A DNA stretch of 64,000 bases from NCBI GenBank assembly GCA_016744855.1, contig JADGDO010000007.1:62001-126000 (forward strand). Reading direction: 5' to 3'. Position numbers and translations under genes: made by a program. How positions within the stretch are numbered: the stretch's first letter is position 1; each line of letters begins with the position of its first letter. The notes beneath the pieces were generated by a model, which was given only the letters and a program-made list of their open reading frames with translations, had not been told where the DNA came from and did not search any database. Source of the DNA: Candidatus Fermentibacteraceae bacterium. Lineage in GTDB: Bacteria; Fermentibacterota; Fermentibacteria; Fermentibacterales; JCC-6. Below, piece by piece: positions 8,668 to 16,503 of this stretch.

Positions 8668-9963
8668 TCAGCTGAGCCCCAATCTGCCCAAAATGTACCC
8701 CTCGTTCCGCAGATGATTGTCTATAGTGCAGATATGACTAAGTTCTGCTTCAGGAACAACCCCTGTCACATCTTCCTGGGAAAGAGCAGCTGATGCAAAG
8801 GATTCACCACTAGCCATAGCTCGCATCGCTATTTTCTGAACAAGTGCGTAAGTATCTTCTCTGGTCAGTCCATGCCTGATCATAGCCAGCATAATTGCTT
8901 GAGAGAAATATCGGTCCCCGGCCTCCTCCACATTCTTAGCAACAGCGTCCTCCATAATTCTGAGTCCGGCTGCCAAGTCTTTTGCCTTCCTCAAGCCGTA
9001 AAGAGCAACTCCACAACTGTCAGGAAATATGAATCTCTCAGCAGCTGAATGGCTGATGTCTCTTTCATGCCACAAAGGGGTGTTCTCGAGACCAACTTGA
9101 AGATAGCCCCTCAGAAGACGGGCAAGACCGCAAAGACGTTCTCCAACAATTGGGTTTCTTTTGTGAGGCATTGCACTTGAGCCCTTCTGACCCTTTCCGA
9201 ACATCTCTTCAACCTCGCCTACCTCAGTTCTTTGAAGATGCCGGCACTCGGTGGCAAAACGTTCCATAGCTCCACCTATTGCTGCGAGAGCATAGAGGAA
9301 CTGGGCATGCCTGTCTCTAGCTACAACCTGGGTGGGAACTTCCTCTACCCCGAGTCCCAGTTTCGTGCATACAAACTCCTCAACTGAGGGATCAAGATAT
9401 GCGTAGGTTCCAACTGCACCGGATATTGTCCCGACACAGGATGCAGTCAGGCTTTCTTCAAGTCTCTTCATGCAACGGATATATTCGGAGTAATGACCGG
9501 CAAACTTCAGAGCAAGGGTTGTCGGCTCAGCATTCATGCCGTGAGTTCTGCCCATGCAGACAATGCCTCTTGTCCTAAGAACCAGCCCCTTTAGTGCTTC
9601 TCCGTATTCTTCAAGAGCCTGCTTGATAAGAGCACCGGAGTCCCGAATCTGCATAGCAACGCAGGTATCCAGAATATCACTGGAGGTCATTCCGTAATGG
9701 ATATGACGGCTCTCCAGTCCCAGAGATTCAGAAACAGAAGTTAAAAAAGCAATTACATCATGCCTTGTTACTGCTTCAATCTCGTTAACCCTCTCGGTTT
9801 CAAAAGATGCGTTTTTCCTGATTAGCTCGAAGTCTTTCTCAGGCACAAGACCAGCTTTGCATCTTGCTTCAACCGCCAGTATTTCAATCTCAAGCCATCT
9901 GGTGTATCTTGCTTCAGTAGTCCAGATTTCTGTCATTTCGGGAATGGAATATCTATCAATCAT
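8668..9963 (-). CDS. purB: Adenylosuccinate lyase
   Basis: Cleaves SAICAR and adenylosuccinate to release fumarate, acting in both IMP and AMP synthesis. The 431 residues match the bacterial family length. The fumarase/aspartase superfamily signature GSSAMPHKRNPI is near residue 265, and HYGMTSSDILD and MGRTHGMNAEPTT carry the conserved His residues of the active site. The ATG at 9963 is preceded by AGGAG at good distance. It heads the purine part of the minus-strand train, 14 bp behind an SH3 lipoprotein gene. No purine riboswitch or PurR-like box is evident upstream, and the gap is too small for one. Confidence 0.97.
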   Translation of the reverse strand: MIDRYSIPEMTEIWTTEARYTRWLEIEILAVEARCKAGLVPEKDFELIRKNASFETERVNEIEAVTRHDVIAFLTSVSESLGLESRHIHYGMTSSDILDTCVAMQIRDSGALIKQALEEYGEALKGLVLRTRGIVCMGRTHGMNAEPTTLALKFAGHYSEYIRCMKRLEESLTASCVGTISGAVGTYAYLDPSVEEFVCTKLGLGVEEVPTQVVARDRHAQFLYALAAIGGAMERFATECRHLQRTEVGEVEEMFGKGQKGSSAMPHKRNPIVGERLCGLARLLRGYLQVGLENTPLWHERDISHSAAERFIFPDSCGVALYGLRKAKDLAAGLRIMEDAVAKNVEEAGDRYFSQAIMLAMIRHGLTREDTYALVQKIAMRAMASGESFASAALSQEDVTGVVPEAELSHICTIDNHLRNEGYILGRLGLS

Positions 9964-9977
9964 GAAAAACTCCTAAC

Positions 9978-10301
9978 CTATTGCGGCAATACCGCACCGG
10001 AAGTGAGCCCGGCATAAATCCAGGCAAATAATGATTTCTCGGGAAGGTAAATTCTATACCAGTCAGGGGCTTCCCCTGTAACCATAAGGCTGTCACCTGC
10101 GTGTACCGAGCCAACTATTGCGTACTGTGTGCCGGGGCCCTGTCTTAAATTGACTGTTCTTCCGGTAACAAGCACTGTCTGAAACGGGTTGTTAGGTGGG
10201 TTTGGCTGCTGTGTGTTACCATCTGTGTTATCAACAGATACGGTGTTACCGCAACCGGCAAGAAAAAGTAACACTGTTAGCAAGATTACTGAAAACTTCA
10301 T
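9978..10301 (-). CDS. SH3 (bacterial SH3b) domain lipoprotein
   Basis: A small exported protein of 107 residues. The N-terminus MKFSVILLTVLLFLAGC is a lipoprotein signal peptide with lipobox LAGC, so the mature protein should be lipid-anchored at the envelope. A Pro/Asn-rich linker (QQPNPPNNP) leads to an SH3b fold in which VNLRQGPGTQYAIVGSVHAGD and WYRIYLPE are typical. Such domains bind peptidoglycan or other wall material. I prefer the ATG at 10301 with GAGAGG six bases upstream, because the ATG at 10322 would overlap ispH and add residues before the signal peptide. Its place between ispH and purB does not suggest a specific partner. Confidence 0.85.
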   Translation of the reverse strand: MKFSVILLTVLLFLAGCGNTVSVDNTDGNTQQPNPPNNPFQTVLVTGRTVNLRQGPGTQYAIVGSVHAGDSLMVTGEAPDWYRIYLPEKSLFAWIYAGLTSGAVLPQ

Positions 10302-10309
10302 AAATCCTC

Positions 10310-12025
10310 TCAAATGCTGCATAGTAAAAAGGGTATAAAACCGGCGATGGCAAGGCTTCCATCAGAAAGAACTCTAACTGTCAATTCCGATGGGAAGGAT
10401 TCTTTCTCGAGACGGAAATAGGCTGTGATTAGAATAACCGGTGCAACAACAAAACCCAAAGAACAAATGGGAAGTTTCCCTGAAAAAACAGCGGCAATCT
10501 GCACCAGACCTGCAGAAGAGGCTCCTGCGATCAAAATTTTCCGACATCTACTAAAACCGAGGTGAAGTGGAAGTGTATCCATCCCCAAGAGAGCATCTCC
10601 CTGCAGATCAACTAGATCGAGGAAGAGAGATCTGCTGAAAAACAGAAGAGCAAGAGAAACCGGCCAGATAAACAATCTAAGACTGAAATCCAGACCTGCC
10701 AGCGTTACTGCGGGAAGAATACAAACAAGAAAACTCCATGCGAGGGTAAACAGTATTTCTCTGGATCCAGGTATGCTTCGCAATAAATCGAAGAATTGAT
10801 TCGCCCTGAAAAGAGGGAGCGCATAGAGGAAACAGAAAAGAGTTGCTACCGCTGTCCAGATAAGCCAGGCCGTACCCAGAACAGATGATATAACAACCGC
10901 ACCGACAAAACTGAGAGCTGCCAGGATGAGAATAATACTCTCGTTTGTACGGATGAACTCTTGTCTTTTCTGGCTGGTCATTGCAACCCTCCGACACTCA
11001 AGAACAGCTGTGAAATTGGTAAAAGACCAGAGAAAAAGCCCTGCTGCCAGTCCTGCAGATCCCCAATCAGAACCGCCAAGTGTCTGTCTCTGAGCAAGAG
11101 CAATCATTAAAGCAATAAATGGAATATGTACACCGCTGAAAACAAGATTCCTGAAAACTGTTCGTATCCAACCGGCGCCGGTGGAGTTACCCTGAATTTC
11201 GAGAAGACGTTCTCTTACTTTCCTGATACTCCATCCCGGAGTTGAAGCACCGGCGGAGAGAAGAATACGTTTATAGTTTTTTAAAGCCTCAGGATCGAGT
11301 TCGTCAGGAGTTTCCACCTTAAAGACCGGCAGCCCCGTTTCTCCACCTATTAATGCAAGTCTTTCCGTATTAGCACTGTGCCTTCCACCGACAACAACAA
11401 CGGCGTCCACCTTACCGAGCAGCTCTCTAAGCTCTTTCTGACGCCTCGCTGTTGAATCACATATTGTATTTGATGACTCAATAGAGGGCCATCTTTGGGT
11501 TAACACAGCAAGAATTTCATGGAATGTTTCACAGTTCTGAGTGGTTTGAGAAAGTAAAAAAGGTTTTTCAAGATCTGGAAGCTTATGAGCCTCCTCAAGT
11601 GATGAGACAACCCTGCCGCTCGAGCCTGCTGAGGAGAGTATTGCTTTTACTTCGTGATGGCCGGAGTCTCCATAAATAATCACATCGTACCCCAGCTTTG
11701 ACATTTTCGTCGCTATAGCCAGAGCTCTTCCTACTCGAGGACAAGTAAGGTCCCTTAATACAAGTGGAAGCTTTACCAGGCGTGCTCTCTCTTCAAGAGT
11801 AACCCCGTGGGTTCTCAAAAAAAGTGTACCACCACTCTCCTCCCATGGTTCGGGAGAAGAACCCACTCCTCTGTCTTTCAAGGCTTCTATTACCTGGGGG
11901 TTGTGTACAAGAGGACCGTAAACACGAAAAGGGCCTTCACCCTTCTTTATTTCCGTAACAACACTGTCTACAGCCCGGCGTACTCCCCAGCAGAAACCGG
12001 CAGTCTTTGCAACTATGACACTCAT
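10310..12025 (-). CDS. ispH: IspH (HMBPP reductase) fused to a UbiA-like prenyltransferase membrane domain
   Basis: Residues 1-280 are IspH, the last enzyme of the MEP isoprenoid pathway (HMBPP to IPP and DMAPP). The [4Fe-4S] ligands Cys12 (TAGFCWGVRRAV), Cys95 (DLTCPRVGRA) and Cys189 (NTICDSTARRQ) are present, as are Glu125 (GHHEVKA) and the SQTT threonines near 161. Residues about 283-571 form a multi-span membrane domain resembling UbiA prenyltransferases: YALPLFR, RSIPGSRE and the second Asp motif DLVDLQGD (470-477) followed by GMDTLPLHLG. The first Asp-rich motif (NDxxDxxxD) is not visible; NFTAVLECRR stands in its place. The ATG at 12025 is chosen over an in-frame TTG at 12040. No Shine-Dalgarno is seen, and TATCTT lies 6 nt upstream of the ATG, so a leaderless mRNA is possible. 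Confidence 0.9.
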   Translation of the reverse strand: MSVIVAKTAGFCWGVRRAVDSVVTEIKKGEGPFRVYGPLVHNPQVIEALKDRGVGSSPEPWEESGGTLFLRTHGVTLEERARLVKLPLVLRDLTCPRVGRALAIATKMSKLGYDVIIYGDSGHHEVKAILSSAGSSGRVVSSLEEAHKLPDLEKPFLLSQTTQNCETFHEILAVLTQRWPSIESSNTICDSTARRQKELRELLGKVDAVVVVGGRHSANTERLALIGGETGLPVFKVETPDELDPEALKNYKRILLSAGASTPGWSIRKVRERLLEIQGNSTGAGWIRTVFRNLVFSGVHIPFIALMIALAQRQTLGGSDWGSAGLAAGLFLWSFTNFTAVLECRRVAMTSQKRQEFIRTNESIILILAALSFVGAVVISSVLGTAWLIWTAVATLFCFLYALPLFRANQFFDLLRSIPGSREILFTLAWSFLVCILPAVTLAGLDFSLRLFIWPVSLALLFFSRSLFLDLVDLQGDALLGMDTLPLHLGFSRCRKILIAGASSAGLVQIAAVFSGKLPICSLGFVVAPVILITAYFRLEKESFPSELTVRVLSDGSLAIAGFIPFLLCSI

Positions 12026-12087: not shown

Positions 12088-12130
12088 GGAAAATAAAAAA
12101 GATAGGCCGCCCCCGTGAGGGAGCGGCCTA
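12088..12130 (-). terminator. Rho-independent terminator of the 12156-12785 gene
   Basis: Read on the minus strand, TAGGCCGCTCCC pairs with GGGGGCGGCCTA around a short TCAC loop (12103-12130). An uninterrupted GC-rich stem is followed by a T-rich tail over about 12088-12102. It sits 25 bp after the stop of the secreted orphan gene and before ispH, so it isolates that gene from the downstream operon. It is the clearest intrinsic terminator in the window. Confidence 0.88.
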
Positions 12131-12155: not shown

Positions 12156-12785
12156 CTAAAATGTAGCCTTGAGTGAACCCCATGTGGTGTTATCAAGAGC
12201 CATTCCACCACTAGGAATGTCAGCAGAAACACGGAAGAAGTAGTTGGCAACGACTTCTACAACAAGCCAAGGCTCCCAGATGATGAAATCATCACTTAAG
12301 AGACTATGAGAAACAGCAGAGCCAGCCCAGTCACCGAGAGCACTAGGCCATCCACCGGCACTCATCTCTGTGTTTGCAAAAGACCAGAAGTTACCTTCTA
12401 CAGTGAGAAGCTCTGGGAAATCAACGAATACTGGTGCATAGTGAAGAGCGGTGAGCATGCTCTGGTCGAGCTGAGTTGTAGGAGCCATTGCATCGCCATT
12501 CCAAACTTCAACGTATACATCAGATGTGTCCCAAGGGTAGCTAGTGCTGTGATAGAACCAGTATTCTGTCTGGTGGATATCGGCACTGCTCTCTCCTGGT
12601 ACAAAGTCTTCTACATTGAACCATACACCTCTGTACATTCCACCCCAAGTAACCCAGTTGGGTGTTCCATTGTCATACTGCAACAGATCTTCATCTGTAT
12701 TCTGGATAGGATCAAGATCAACAGCAAGCTGTCCTGCGAAAGCCGCTAATGAAAGTACAGCAAGAATTGCTATTACGTTCTTCAT
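12156..12785 (-). CDS. Secreted protein of unknown function, monocistronic
   Basis: A 209-residue protein I cannot assign. The N-terminus MKNVIAILAVLSLAAFAGQ is a Sec signal peptide cleaved near AFA-GQ. The mature part is acidic and rich in Trp, Tyr, Asp and Thr (for example WGGMYRGVWFNVEDF and YHSTSYPWDTSDVYVEVW), with no cysteine, and looks like an all-beta extracellular domain. There is no type IX sorting tail. The ribosome site AAGGAGA is near consensus, the gene has its own terminator just downstream (12088-12130), and a possible promoter lies upstream. This suggests a separately controlled and possibly abundant exported product. Confidence 0.85.
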   Translation of the reverse strand: MKNVIAILAVLSLAAFAGQLAVDLDPIQNTDEDLLQYDNGTPNWVTWGGMYRGVWFNVEDFVPGESSADIHQTEYWFYHSTSYPWDTSDVYVEVWNGDAMAPTTQLDQSMLTALHYAPVFVDFPELLTVEGNFWSFANTEMSAGGWPSALGDWAGSAVSHSLLSDDFIIWEPWLVVEVVANYFFRVSADIPSGGMALDNTTWGSLKATF

Positions 12786-12887: not shown

Positions 12888-14861
12888 CTATTTCTTCCGA
12901 TTTTGAAGTCTTTTCAAAATGTCTCTGTATCTTGCTGCCTCCTCGAATTCTAGATTATCCGCAGCATTAATCATACATTTTTCAATTTCGGCAACACGAT
13001 CAACAGTGTACTCTTCGGCTGCTTCCGCGGCCATAATCGATTTCTTTTTCCCCATAATATCGGCAATACCCGTAGATCTAATTATTTCTTCTCTCGTCTT
13101 TACTATTGTCGTTGGAGTGATGTTATTATCTTTATTGTACTTTATTTGAATCTTTCTACGTCGAGCTGTTTCATCAAGTGCATATTTCATGGAATCTGTT
13201 ATCTTGTCAGCGTAGAAAATAACTTTTCCGACATTATTTCTTGCAGCTCTGCCGGCTGTTTGAACAAGACTTGTTCTAGATCTCAAAAAACCTTCCTTGT
13301 CTGCATCCATAACTGCAACGAGGGTTACTTCCGGAAGATCTAGACCTTCTCTCAGAAGGTTAACTCCAACCAAAACATCGAATTCTGCCAGCCTTAGTTC
13401 TCTCAAAATAGAGACACGTTCGAGAGCATCAATTTCGCTGTGAATGTACCTGGTTCTGAAATCAAGCCTTCTCAGGTAATCAGTCAGTTCTTCAGCCATC
13501 TTCTTGGTAAGAGTGGTAACAAGAATTCTTCCGTCGTTTTCTGAAGCAGTTCTGATCTGCTCTACTAGATCATCCACCTGCCCCTCGGCCGGCCTCACCT
13601 CGATGACAGGATCGACTAATCCAGTAGGTCTGACGATCTGCTCAACAATGTTTGTGGAAATATCAAGTTCAAAATTTGCTGGAGTAGCCGACATACAAAT
13701 CTTTCTGCCGGTAATGGCAGTAAACTCTTCCAGAAACAAAGGACGATTATCCAGAGCAGACGGAAGCCTGAATCCAAAGTTTACCAGGGTTTGCTTTCTT
13801 GATCTGTCACCCTTGAACATTCCTCTTATCTGAGGTAAGGTGCGATGACTCTCATCAATAAAAACAAGATAATCATCCGGGAAGTAGTCCAGAAGACAGG
13901 ATGGTCTCTCTCCCTCTTTCCTGTCACCTATCAACCTGCTGTAGTTCTCAATTCCTGAGCAATATCCTGTCTCACCCATCATCTCGAGATCAAAATTGGT
14001 TCTTGACTCCAATCGGTGAGCTTCAAGCATCTTCCCTGCGGCCCTGAGTTCGAGCAGTCTTTCGTCCATTTCCCGACGAATACGGCCCATTGCCAGATTA
14101 AGCTTCCTCTCACCGGTAACAAAATGCCTGGCGGGGAAGATCATGGTTTTCTCCATGGTTCCCATAACATGTCCTGTGAGATGGTCCATCTGGCTTATAC
14201 TTTCCACATTGTCACCGAAAAACTCTACTCGAAGACCCGTGCTGGCATAGGAGGGAACAAGGTCGACAATATCTCCTCTTACACGAAAATACCCTCTAGT
14301 GAGTACAGTATCATTCCGCCTGTACTGCATTCCTACCAGCTTCATCAGAAGAAGATCCCGCGACAGGGATGCTCCGACCGTGATCTGGAAACCGGTATCC
14401 ATGAAATCTCCGGGTGCCCCAAGGCCATACAAACAACTCACCGATGCAACAACAATCACATCATCTCTGCTAAGCAGGCTGGCAGTTGTTCTCAGGCGAA
14501 GCCTGTCCAGCTCCTCATTTAAACTGGCGTCCTTCTCTATGAACATATCTCTGGCGGGAATGTAGGCCTCGGGCTGATAGTAATCGTAGTAGCTTACAAA
14601 ATATTCGACCGCATTATCGGGGAAGAAACCGGACAATTCTCCGAATAGCTGAGCAGCAAGAGTTTTGTTATGGCAGATAACGAGAGAAGGCAATTTCATT
14701 TTTTCTATCACGTTTGCCATTGTAAATGTTTTTCCAGAGCCGGTTACACCAAGAAGAGTCTGCCATTCGCTCTTCAGTTCAAGTCCCTTAACAAGTCCTT
14801 CAATGGCCCGGGGCTGATCGCCCGACGGGCCAAAGGATGACTTCAGTTTAAAGCCTGACAG
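12888..14861 (-). CDS. uvrB: UvrB, excinuclease ABC subunit B, with an apparent CTG start codon
   Basis: DNA-damage-loading helicase subunit of nucleotide excision repair. Using CTG at 14861 as codon 1 gives 657 residues, the normal size. FKLKSSFGPSGDQPRAI (4-20) and the Walker A motif GVTGSGKT (38-45) are intact and YFVSYYDYYQPEAYIP is the beta-hairpin region. The C-terminal UVR motif (EFEEAARYRDILK) binds UvrC. The frame opens after a TGA at about 14874 and contains no ATG, GTG or TTG until the ATG at 14720, which lies after Walker A and would give a dead protein. GAGGG sits six bases before the CTG. pheT ends one base upstream, so translation is probably coupled. Confidence 0.93.
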   Translation of the reverse strand: MSGFKLKSSFGPSGDQPRAIEGLVKGLELKSEWQTLLGVTGSGKTFTMANVIEKMKLPSLVICHNKTLAAQLFGELSGFFPDNAVEYFVSYYDYYQPEAYIPARDMFIEKDASLNEELDRLRLRTTASLLSRDDVIVVASVSCLYGLGAPGDFMDTGFQITVGASLSRDLLLMKLVGMQYRRNDTVLTRGYFRVRGDIVDLVPSYASTGLRVEFFGDNVESISQMDHLTGHVMGTMEKTMIFPARHFVTGERKLNLAMGRIRREMDERLLELRAAGKMLEAHRLESRTNFDLEMMGETGYCSGIENYSRLIGDRKEGERPSCLLDYFPDDYLVFIDESHRTLPQIRGMFKGDRSRKQTLVNFGFRLPSALDNRPLFLEEFTAITGRKICMSATPANFELDISTNIVEQIVRPTGLVDPVIEVRPAEGQVDDLVEQIRTASENDGRILVTTLTKKMAEELTDYLRRLDFRTRYIHSEIDALERVSILRELRLAEFDVLVGVNLLREGLDLPEVTLVAVMDADKEGFLRSRTSLVQTAGRAARNNVGKVIFYADKITDSMKYALDETARRRKIQIKYNKDNNITPTTIVKTREEIIRSTGIADIMGKKKSIMAAEAAEEYTVDRVAEIEKCMINAADNLEFEEAARYRDILKRLQNRKK

Positions 14862-14862
14862 A

Positions 14863-16503
14863 CTAAACCCTCAGGCTTTCCAGAGACAATTCAAAACCTG
14901 CTACAGGAACAGTTATTCCCCAGGCTTCCAGAACACCAGGATGGAATTCACCCAGAATTCCAACCTCGTTGCCGTTTATCAGAATGGATGCACTTCTACC
15001 GGGGATAAATCTAGTGTCATCAATCGCCTTGAGAGAAAGCTCAAGCCCTCTCAGGTGGCAGATTATCCCAAGGATGGAATGGACTGCTCCAAAATCACCG
15101 TCCCCCGTACTCACAGCCAAATTGACTGCTGTATCACAGAGTGCACTGTTTGTTCTACAAAGAACTTCGCCCACAGTAAACAATCGGTGTGGAAAAGCAG
15201 CGTGACCACTCGAAGCCTCGACCTCAAGAAGTGCTGGTAAAAGTGTGCTTGAGACTACCCCGTATTCAGCTGTCATGGGATTACTGATTCTGATAGGAGG
15301 AACAGGAGTTCTGGTCAGCGTAGATATCTTCTCAAAACTTGTTAGAACAGGTCTCATTATCTCTTCACAGCCAGCTCCGACGAGAAGAGACTTAACTGAA
15401 CGGGCAAGACTTTCAACAGGTGCTGCGGATCCAACAGTGTATTCTGAGGGAAGAATCGGCTCAATATTGTTAAGCCCGATAGCAATTACAATATCCTCAA
15501 TCAGGTCTCTTGGGTGTATGCCGTCGCGCCTGTAGGGAGGCATAACAGCAGTCACAGAATCATCGCTAACACTGATTTCTCCGTAATCCATCTTCGAAAG
15601 AAGTGCCTCCAGATCAAGCTCCTCTGCGGGAGTTCCTATCATTTTGGATATCTCATCTAAACTTGCAGAAAGAGTATCTCTGTAGATGTGGGGGGTAACC
15701 GCAGCATCACCATCAGAGTATCTGATTTCAACAGGGCTTATGACAGCTCCTCTGTCCTCAAGATTACAAGCAAGAATGGTCGCAGTCAGGTTAACAGTGT
15801 GCCAATCCGTTCCGGTTACTTCACAAAAAAGCCGACTGTCACCGGAAGCAACTCTGCCAGTTGTCTGGCTGTTAAGAACTGGAGGAAATGACAGTATTTT
15901 ACCTGCACTGTCTCTCAGAATCGGATATTTCTCAAAATCCTTGAGAAGAGATGCATACTTTGTTCCGGTTTCTGTCTGCTTCAGAATCTCAGAGAGAGTC
16001 ATTTCAATTTCTTCTCCAAGGGGCTGAAAAGCTGTTTCAGGTGATGTCACTGAATAGCTGACCGGGAAACTGATTCCATCAAGAGGGTAAAAACCTATTG
16101 CAGCAGTTTTTCTTTCTTTACCGAAACTGGAAGCAATTTTCTCCTGTGCAGTAATCAAAGACTCTAGGCCGTCATCATCGACAGTCCATCCCGCGCAAGT
16201 GAAGGCAGCAATGTACGGTCTGACCTGTTTCAGCTCTTCGTGAACATCAATGTGAACAACAGGATCAGCCATACAACTCAAATGAGTTTCAGCGCCGGTA
16301 TTCCAGCAGCGCAACCCTCTTGCGATTCCCTCTGCTGTCCATAGATCCGGTCGGTTTGTATCGTTGAGCTCTATTTTTACAGTTTTTTCGTACAGCCCGT
16401 CCAGCTCAGCCTTGAGTGATTCAAGAAGTGCTTCCAGGTTGTCTGTGCTATCCATTTTAGCAAGGGGAAGAAAATCCTTGAGAGGTATTTCTATTTTAGG
16501 CAT
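14863..16503 (-). CDS. pheT: Phenylalanyl-tRNA synthetase beta subunit, archaeal/eukaryotic type
   Basis: Non-catalytic, tRNA-binding subunit of PheRS. With 546 residues it matches the short archaeal/eukaryotic-type beta chain rather than the roughly 800-residue bacterial one, and it lacks the N-terminal EMAP-like tRNA-binding domain and the C-terminal anticodon domain. Recognisable parts are IELNDTNRPDLWTAEGIARGLR near the N-terminus (editing/B1-B5-like region) and the class II-like core with MPPYRRDGIHPRDLIEDIVIAIGL. An ATG at 16509 is also in frame, but the ATG at 16503 has GGAGG eight bases upstream and gives MPKIEIPLKDF. The gene overlaps pheS by 8 bp and is followed directly by uvrB. 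Confidence 0.93.
   Translation of the reverse strand: MPKIEIPLKDFLPLAKMDSTDNLEALLESLKAELDGLYEKTVKIELNDTNRPDLWTAEGIARGLRCWNTGAETHLSCMADPVVHIDVHEELKQVRPYIAAFTCAGWTVDDDGLESLITAQEKIASSFGKERKTAAIGFYPLDGISFPVSYSVTSPETAFQPLGEEIEMTLSEILKQTETGTKYASLLKDFEKYPILRDSAGKILSFPPVLNSQTTGRVASGDSRLFCEVTGTDWHTVNLTATILACNLEDRGAVISPVEIRYSDGDAAVTPHIYRDTLSASLDEISKMIGTPAEELDLEALLSKMDYGEISVSDDSVTAVMPPYRRDGIHPRDLIEDIVIAIGLNNIEPILPSEYTVGSAAPVESLARSVKSLLVGAGCEEIMRPVLTSFEKISTLTRTPVPPIRISNPMTAEYGVVSSTLLPALLEVEASSGHAAFPHRLFTVGEVLCRTNSALCDTAVNLAVSTGDGDFGAVHSILGIICHLRGLELSLKAIDDTRFIPGRSASILINGNEVGILGEFHPGVLEAWGITVPVAGFELSLESLRV

Follow-up and report, generated by a model that had tools for sequence, protein, structure and literature searches.

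IspH, a drug target, catalyses the final reaction of the MEP pathway. Its fusion to a UbiA-type prenyltransferase domain was described by Rao et al. in 2015 (PMC4746011), who reported 47 IspH–UbiA fusions, all from sulfate reducers; those of the Desulfobacterales had two DXXXD motifs and were placed in class PT_UbiA_5, and the full-length protein could not be expressed. In the literature that we searched, a single later paper mentions IspH–UbiA, and does so in its reference list alone. In animals, HMGCR, an enzyme of isoprenoid supply, is under the control of the UbiA-fold protein UBIAD1 (PMC8641950, PMC9314443): UBIAD1 controls the degradation of HMGCR, and geranylgeraniol disrupts the binding (PMC8641950).

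Here we characterize an IspH–UbiA gene in a window of 64,000 nucleotides, the whole stretch of DNA analysed, from an uncultured sediment bacterium (Candidatus Fermentibacteraceae) whose relatives by name are Ca. Sabulitectum and other Fermentibacterota. An earlier note on this DNA knew of no IspH–UbiA fusion, although one had been published in 2015; the published range and motif description differ from our findings. What is new is a far wider taxonomic range, the status of the fused gene as sole IspH, the erosion of UbiA motif 1 with motif 2 kept, and a host order whose sampled genomes lack the tested quinone-synthesis markers.

A complete IspH in a fused gene

A single frame on the minus strand starts at an ATG (position 12025), ends at a stop (10310–10312) and encodes 571 amino acids, and the plus strand across the same interval is riddled with stops (Table 1). 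Residues 1–277 are, by sequence, a complete IspH. Pfam LYTB (PF02401) matches residues 3–274 (E = 2e-74; 250.6 bits against a cut-off of 24.5), and TIGR00216 (ispH) passes its curated cut-off of 187.85 with 237 bits. C12, C95, C189, H41, H73, H123, E125, T161, T162, S217, N219 and S261 are invariant in our IspH alignment (A1); we take the His, Glu, Thr, Ser and Asn positions among them to match active-site residues of E. coli IspH. The IspH half is expected to be active as an HMBPP reductase, since no second IspH was detected in its genome. The same holds for all 36 other fusion-bearing genomes tested (37/37 with its own), so that IspH function appears to be tied to the membrane domain. The earlier note had read this frame as a complete IspH plus a multi-span membrane domain, and had left the strand unstated; the frame is intact and its three cluster cysteines are invariant.

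Table 1 Features of the fused gene and its surroundings (positions in the window)
Feature	Position	Strand	Evidence or remark
Whole fused gene	10310..12025	-	571 aa + stop; relatives also full length
IspH domain, residues 1–277	11195..12025	-	LYTB, TIGR00216, 3dnf IspH E 2.3e-54
Cys12, 4Fe-4S ligand	11990..11992	-	Invariant, alignment A1
Cys95, 4Fe-4S ligand	11741..11743	-	Invariant, alignment A1
Cys189, 4Fe-4S ligand	11459..11461	-	Invariant, alignment A1
Low-confidence linker, residues 278–284	11174..11194	-	pLDDT <50 at 281–283
Predicted UbiA-fold domain, 9 TM helices, residues 285–571	10313..11173	-	PF01040, NF010117, structure model
UbiA motif 1 remnant (N-xxx-D-xxx-D site): T339, E343, V347	10985..11011	-	Register identical by MAFFT and hhalign
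Tyr401, equivalent of UbiA catalytic Tyr (AfUbiA Y139)	10823..10825	-	Conservation, hhalign
UbiA motif 2, D473-L-Q-G-D477	10595..10609	-	Conserved across fused sequences
Small SH3-domain lipoprotein-like gene	9978-10322		Downstream of fused gene
purB	8668-9963		Downstream; follows in relatives examined within the order
209-aa protein	12156-12785	-	Upstream; signal-like N-terminus, no Pfam match
Strong terminator-like hairpin of upstream gene	12103..12130	-	12 pairs, 9 GC; consensus match only
uvrB	12888-14870	-	Upstream

With a terminator-like hairpin upstream, transcription probably begins anew at the fused gene. Neighbourhoods across lineages share no recurrent partner save a response regulator in four and offer no clue to function outside the order, and no isoprenoid-related gene was recognisably adjacent to the fusion in the relatives examined. 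The uvrB frame extends 5′ of its first ATG, through the Walker A sequence (GVTGSGKTF), up to a stop; this extension contains no ATG, GTG or TTG and offers a CTG (LSGFKL) as its first plausible start codon, and the uvrB N-terminus is similar in the relatives L034, L038 and L043.

Distribution and origin of the fusion

The earlier note had proposed counting genomes that hold both domains in one gene. Within the same order (Fermentibacterales), 38 of the 42 sampled genomes contain the fusion at full length and contig ends interrupt it in 3; one genome (80% complete) has no IspH match. Beyond the order, full-length fusions occur in the Holophagae, Nitrospirota, Nitrospinota and Sumerlaeota, Geothrix isolates included, and a sample of 343 other bacterial genomes yielded 26 with such a fusion, from 22 families. 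In a quick tree of the IspH domain (41 fused and 27 unfused sequences), the fused label changes 3 times, against a mean of 21 after shuffling. One side of a well-supported (starred) branch holds the fused rows together with six unfused ones (Acidobacteriota, Verrucomicrobiota and one further row), and a tree that keeps all fused sequences together was not rejected (AU P = 0.846), its likelihood being higher. The fusion is widespread and probably ancient; the tree is most simply read as one early fusion event, perhaps followed by losses in some lineages, a reading short of proof. The L105 fusion, from a metagenome-assembled genome labelled Bacillota, falls among Holophagae rows in the IspH tree, and its label may be wrong.

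Fold of the membrane half

Profile searches suggested in the earlier note gave a clear result for PF02401 (above) and a weaker one for the second domain: the UbiA profile PF01040 matches residues 366–540 (E = 3.6e-4 with the whole protein, 8.6e-5 with the domain alone) at 20.3 bits, below its curated cut-off of 34.2. Other members of the fused family, including some within the order, exceed that cut-off, and the NCBIfam prenyltransferase NF010117 matches the membrane half (E = 2.7e-8). An AlphaFold2 model of this half, built on 95 sequences, has nine transmembrane helices (pLDDT 90.3). Its best VIA-align match is ApUbiA (4od5; Z = 19.0, r.m.s.d. 3.4 over 254 residues); 4od4 and UBIAD1 come next, and soluble isoprenyl diphosphate synthases after them (Z ~16). 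Because these soluble proteins reach such values, the UbiA assignment draws on the sequence motifs and on a match that spans the entire domain, in addition to Z. As modelled, the membrane half has the UbiA fold, in agreement with the identity first proposed for it. From the order of the helices, both motifs and the conserved 418–422 loop face the side on which the N-terminal IspH lies. Among unfused proteins, the closest relative of the fused UbiA domain that we saw is a standalone one of 333 aa (L227, genome G355; E = 4e-19).

Loss of motif 1 and retention of motif 2

The earlier note had seen the second UbiA Asp motif and reported the first as not visible, and both observations hold. The D-xxx-D of motif 2 is present (D473 and D477), and at the site of N-xxx-D-xxx-D stand T339, E343 and V347, with Glu in place of the first Asp; MAFFT and hhalign (against 51 standalone UbiAs) agree on this register. 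Among 36 Fermentibacterales sequences, the Asn site is Thr in 27, the first Asp is Glu in 34 and the second is Asp in none, whereas D473 and D477 occur in 36/36. Over all fused sequences, D477 is found in 122/122 and D473 in 112/122. When 40 distinct fusions are compared, only 2 (L146 and L159) keep N, D and D in motif 1; the first Asp is Asp in 18, Glu in 13 and neither in 9, some having R, K, Y, S or N there, and D477 is present in all 40. Tyr401 is at least 97% conserved in the order and is Tyr in 35 of the distinct fusions. By comparison, of 60 standalone UbiAs taken from the same order and from other genomes with a fusion, at least 51 have N-xxx-D-xxx-D (Fisher P = 2e-16 for motif 1 intact in fusions versus standalone proteins, relatedness ignored); several of the 9 that fail are incomplete or wrongly picked frames. 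On the tree, the status of the first Asp switches at least 9 times, 3 of them forced by well-supported branches, and D477 does not change anywhere. Two UbiA halves, those of L166 (3506-4999, minus strand) and L153 (338-2107, minus strand), are more decayed; the first motif-2 Asp is His in both, and L166 is missing the motif-1 region.

Mutants of AfUbiA give a guide to what these changes may mean (PMC4106721). N68A and D72A in motif 1 abolish GPP binding, and D198A and D202A in motif 2 merely weaken it; judged by these mutants, the residues lost in the fusions are those most important for binding. D76, the second motif-1 Asp of AfUbiA, makes no direct contact with Mg2+, so that its loss alone would mean little. 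E. coli MenA needs every one of the four equivalent residues for function (PMC4106721), motif 2 included, and retention of motif 2 could therefore equally signal catalysis.

Selection on the membrane half

The UbiA half is under strong purifying selection, similar to that on the IspH half. In the twelve least diverged pairs of close Sabulitectum species, several of them close to synonymous saturation, dN/dS is 0.065–0.111 for the UbiA half and 0.052–0.094 for the IspH half. Between phyla the UbiA half diverges faster (16–19% identity against 39–43% for the IspH half). Positions fixed across the order concentrate at motif 2 and in loops on the cytoplasmic side. Among the most conserved are R354, Y401, PGSR (419–422), R465, D470, D473, Q475, D477, T484 and P486, polar and on the cytoplasmic, active-site side. 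Purifying selection together with these conserved positions indicates that this surface serves a function of the domain.

Quinone and lipid pathways

The earlier note had offered coupling to a membrane prenylation, of a quinone for example. The quinone part is unlikely for this order, in which we rejected it because PF02621 (MqnA/D) was found in 0/12 Fermentibacterales genomes, and MenD exceeded its cut-off in 0/12 with a weak match in one; PF02621 is present in three fusion-bearing genomes of other groups. Quinone prenylation is thus unlikely in this organism, and on the tested markers, MqnA/D and MenD, a quinone-free fermentative life is plausible. In nearly all genomes of the order there are exactly two UbiA matches, one in the fused gene and the other standalone. 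A check for a separate ubiA, also proposed in the note, identified the standalone protein of the same genome (L001, C41:33433-37140) as a decaprenyl-phosphate phosphoribosyltransferase (over the NCBIfam cut-off), directly before the MEP-pathway gene ispE. Archaeal-type lipid synthesis was considered and found unsupported, with just a partial, sub-cut-off GGGPS match in a 419-aa frame.

Possible roles of the UbiA-fold half

We give about an even chance to the membrane half being a dock on IspH that binds an isoprenoid lipid or phosphate and carries out no standard prenyl transfer. IspH would then produce IPP and DMAPP on the cytoplasmic side of the membrane, the side to which the UbiA cavity would open. 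Because the motif-1 Asn and second Asp are gone and the first Asp is Glu, the UbiA-fold half is probably unable to bind and transfer a prenyl diphosphate in the standard manner, and in this organism it probably makes no quinone. Motif 2, Tyr401 and a group of polar residues towards the cytoplasm are still there, under purifying selection. Such a dock would hold IspH close to prenyl synthases and might tune its output. The fusions elsewhere that keep N, D and D count against this explanation, as do the two DXXXD motifs that Rao et al. report for the Desulfobacterales.

The main rival, less probable and on balance unlikely, is an altered but active prenyltransferase that passes DMAPP, or a prenyl diphosphate derived from IspH, to a non-quinone acceptor, with E343 standing in for the first Asp; this would be a Rosetta stone coupling, as proposed by Rao et al. 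(PMC4746011). Catalysis is conceivable because E343 may still bind Mg2+, and a change from Asp to Glu is mild. The domain has kept R465 and the catalytic Tyr as well as motif 2, it is under strong purifying selection, and the full motif 1 survives in some fusions. However, most fusions are without the motif-1 Asn and second Asp that the standalone UbiAs of these or related genomes retain, some fusions have R, K, Y, S or N at the first-Asp site, and neither the tested quinone pathway markers nor a candidate acceptor was found in this order.

A decidedly doubtful proposal gives the half a sensing role. As a pseudo-prenyltransferase it would detect an isoprenoid end product within the membrane and exert feedback on the fused IspH, the two forming a covalent bacterial counterpart of HMGCR–UBIAD1 that evolved once and was kept across several phyla.

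After the dock and the altered enzyme we rank, as improbable, an inert membrane anchor left from a dead UbiA and nothing more. The faster divergence of this half and the repeated loss of motif 1 fit such an anchor, and anchoring without catalysis, the other role raised in the earlier note, is closer to the sequence than prenylation. Yet an inert anchor would have no use for the polar residues on the cytoplasmic, active-site side that account for many of the top-conserved positions; they suggest more than that. An assembly join, which the note had named as grounds for withdrawal, or chance read-through of two genes can be dismissed, because full-length single frames occur in many independent assemblies, Geothrix isolates included.

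A multi-phylum fusion that serves as sole IspH, with half of an active site lost and half fixed, points to an undescribed means of locating or regulating isoprenoid supply. Quinone prenylation, the usual explanation, can be set aside for an order that lacks the tested quinone-synthesis markers, which makes the question of its role testable using one protein.

Comparison with known systems

The protein described here has IspH followed by a UbiA fold in a single chain, as in the fusion of Rao et al. 2015. It shares with the Desulfobacterales IspH–UbiA the domain order, about nine transmembrane helices, a three-Cys IspH and a separate UbiA-family gene elsewhere. It differs in that two DXXXD motifs, and sulfate reducers only, were reported there, whereas the present protein has lost motif 1 and comes from an order whose sampled genomes are without the tested quinone-synthesis markers. 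With UbiA prenyltransferases (ApUbiA 4od5, AfUbiA 4tq3 and the archaeal DGGGP synthase 6m31) it shares the nine-helix fold, motif 2 and the catalytic Tyr, but it has T-xxx-E-xxx-V where they have N-xxx-D-xxx-D, and identity is ~12%. The clostridial IspH–RPS1 fusion likewise joins IspH to a C-terminal partner, there soluble S1 repeats and no membrane domain. In animal HMGCR–UBIAD1 (8djk), a UbiA-fold protein is also joined to a key isoprenoid-supply enzyme at the membrane; that pair is non-covalent, belongs to the mevalonate pathway and contains an active UBIAD1 enzyme, and it serves here as an analogy only, not as evidence.
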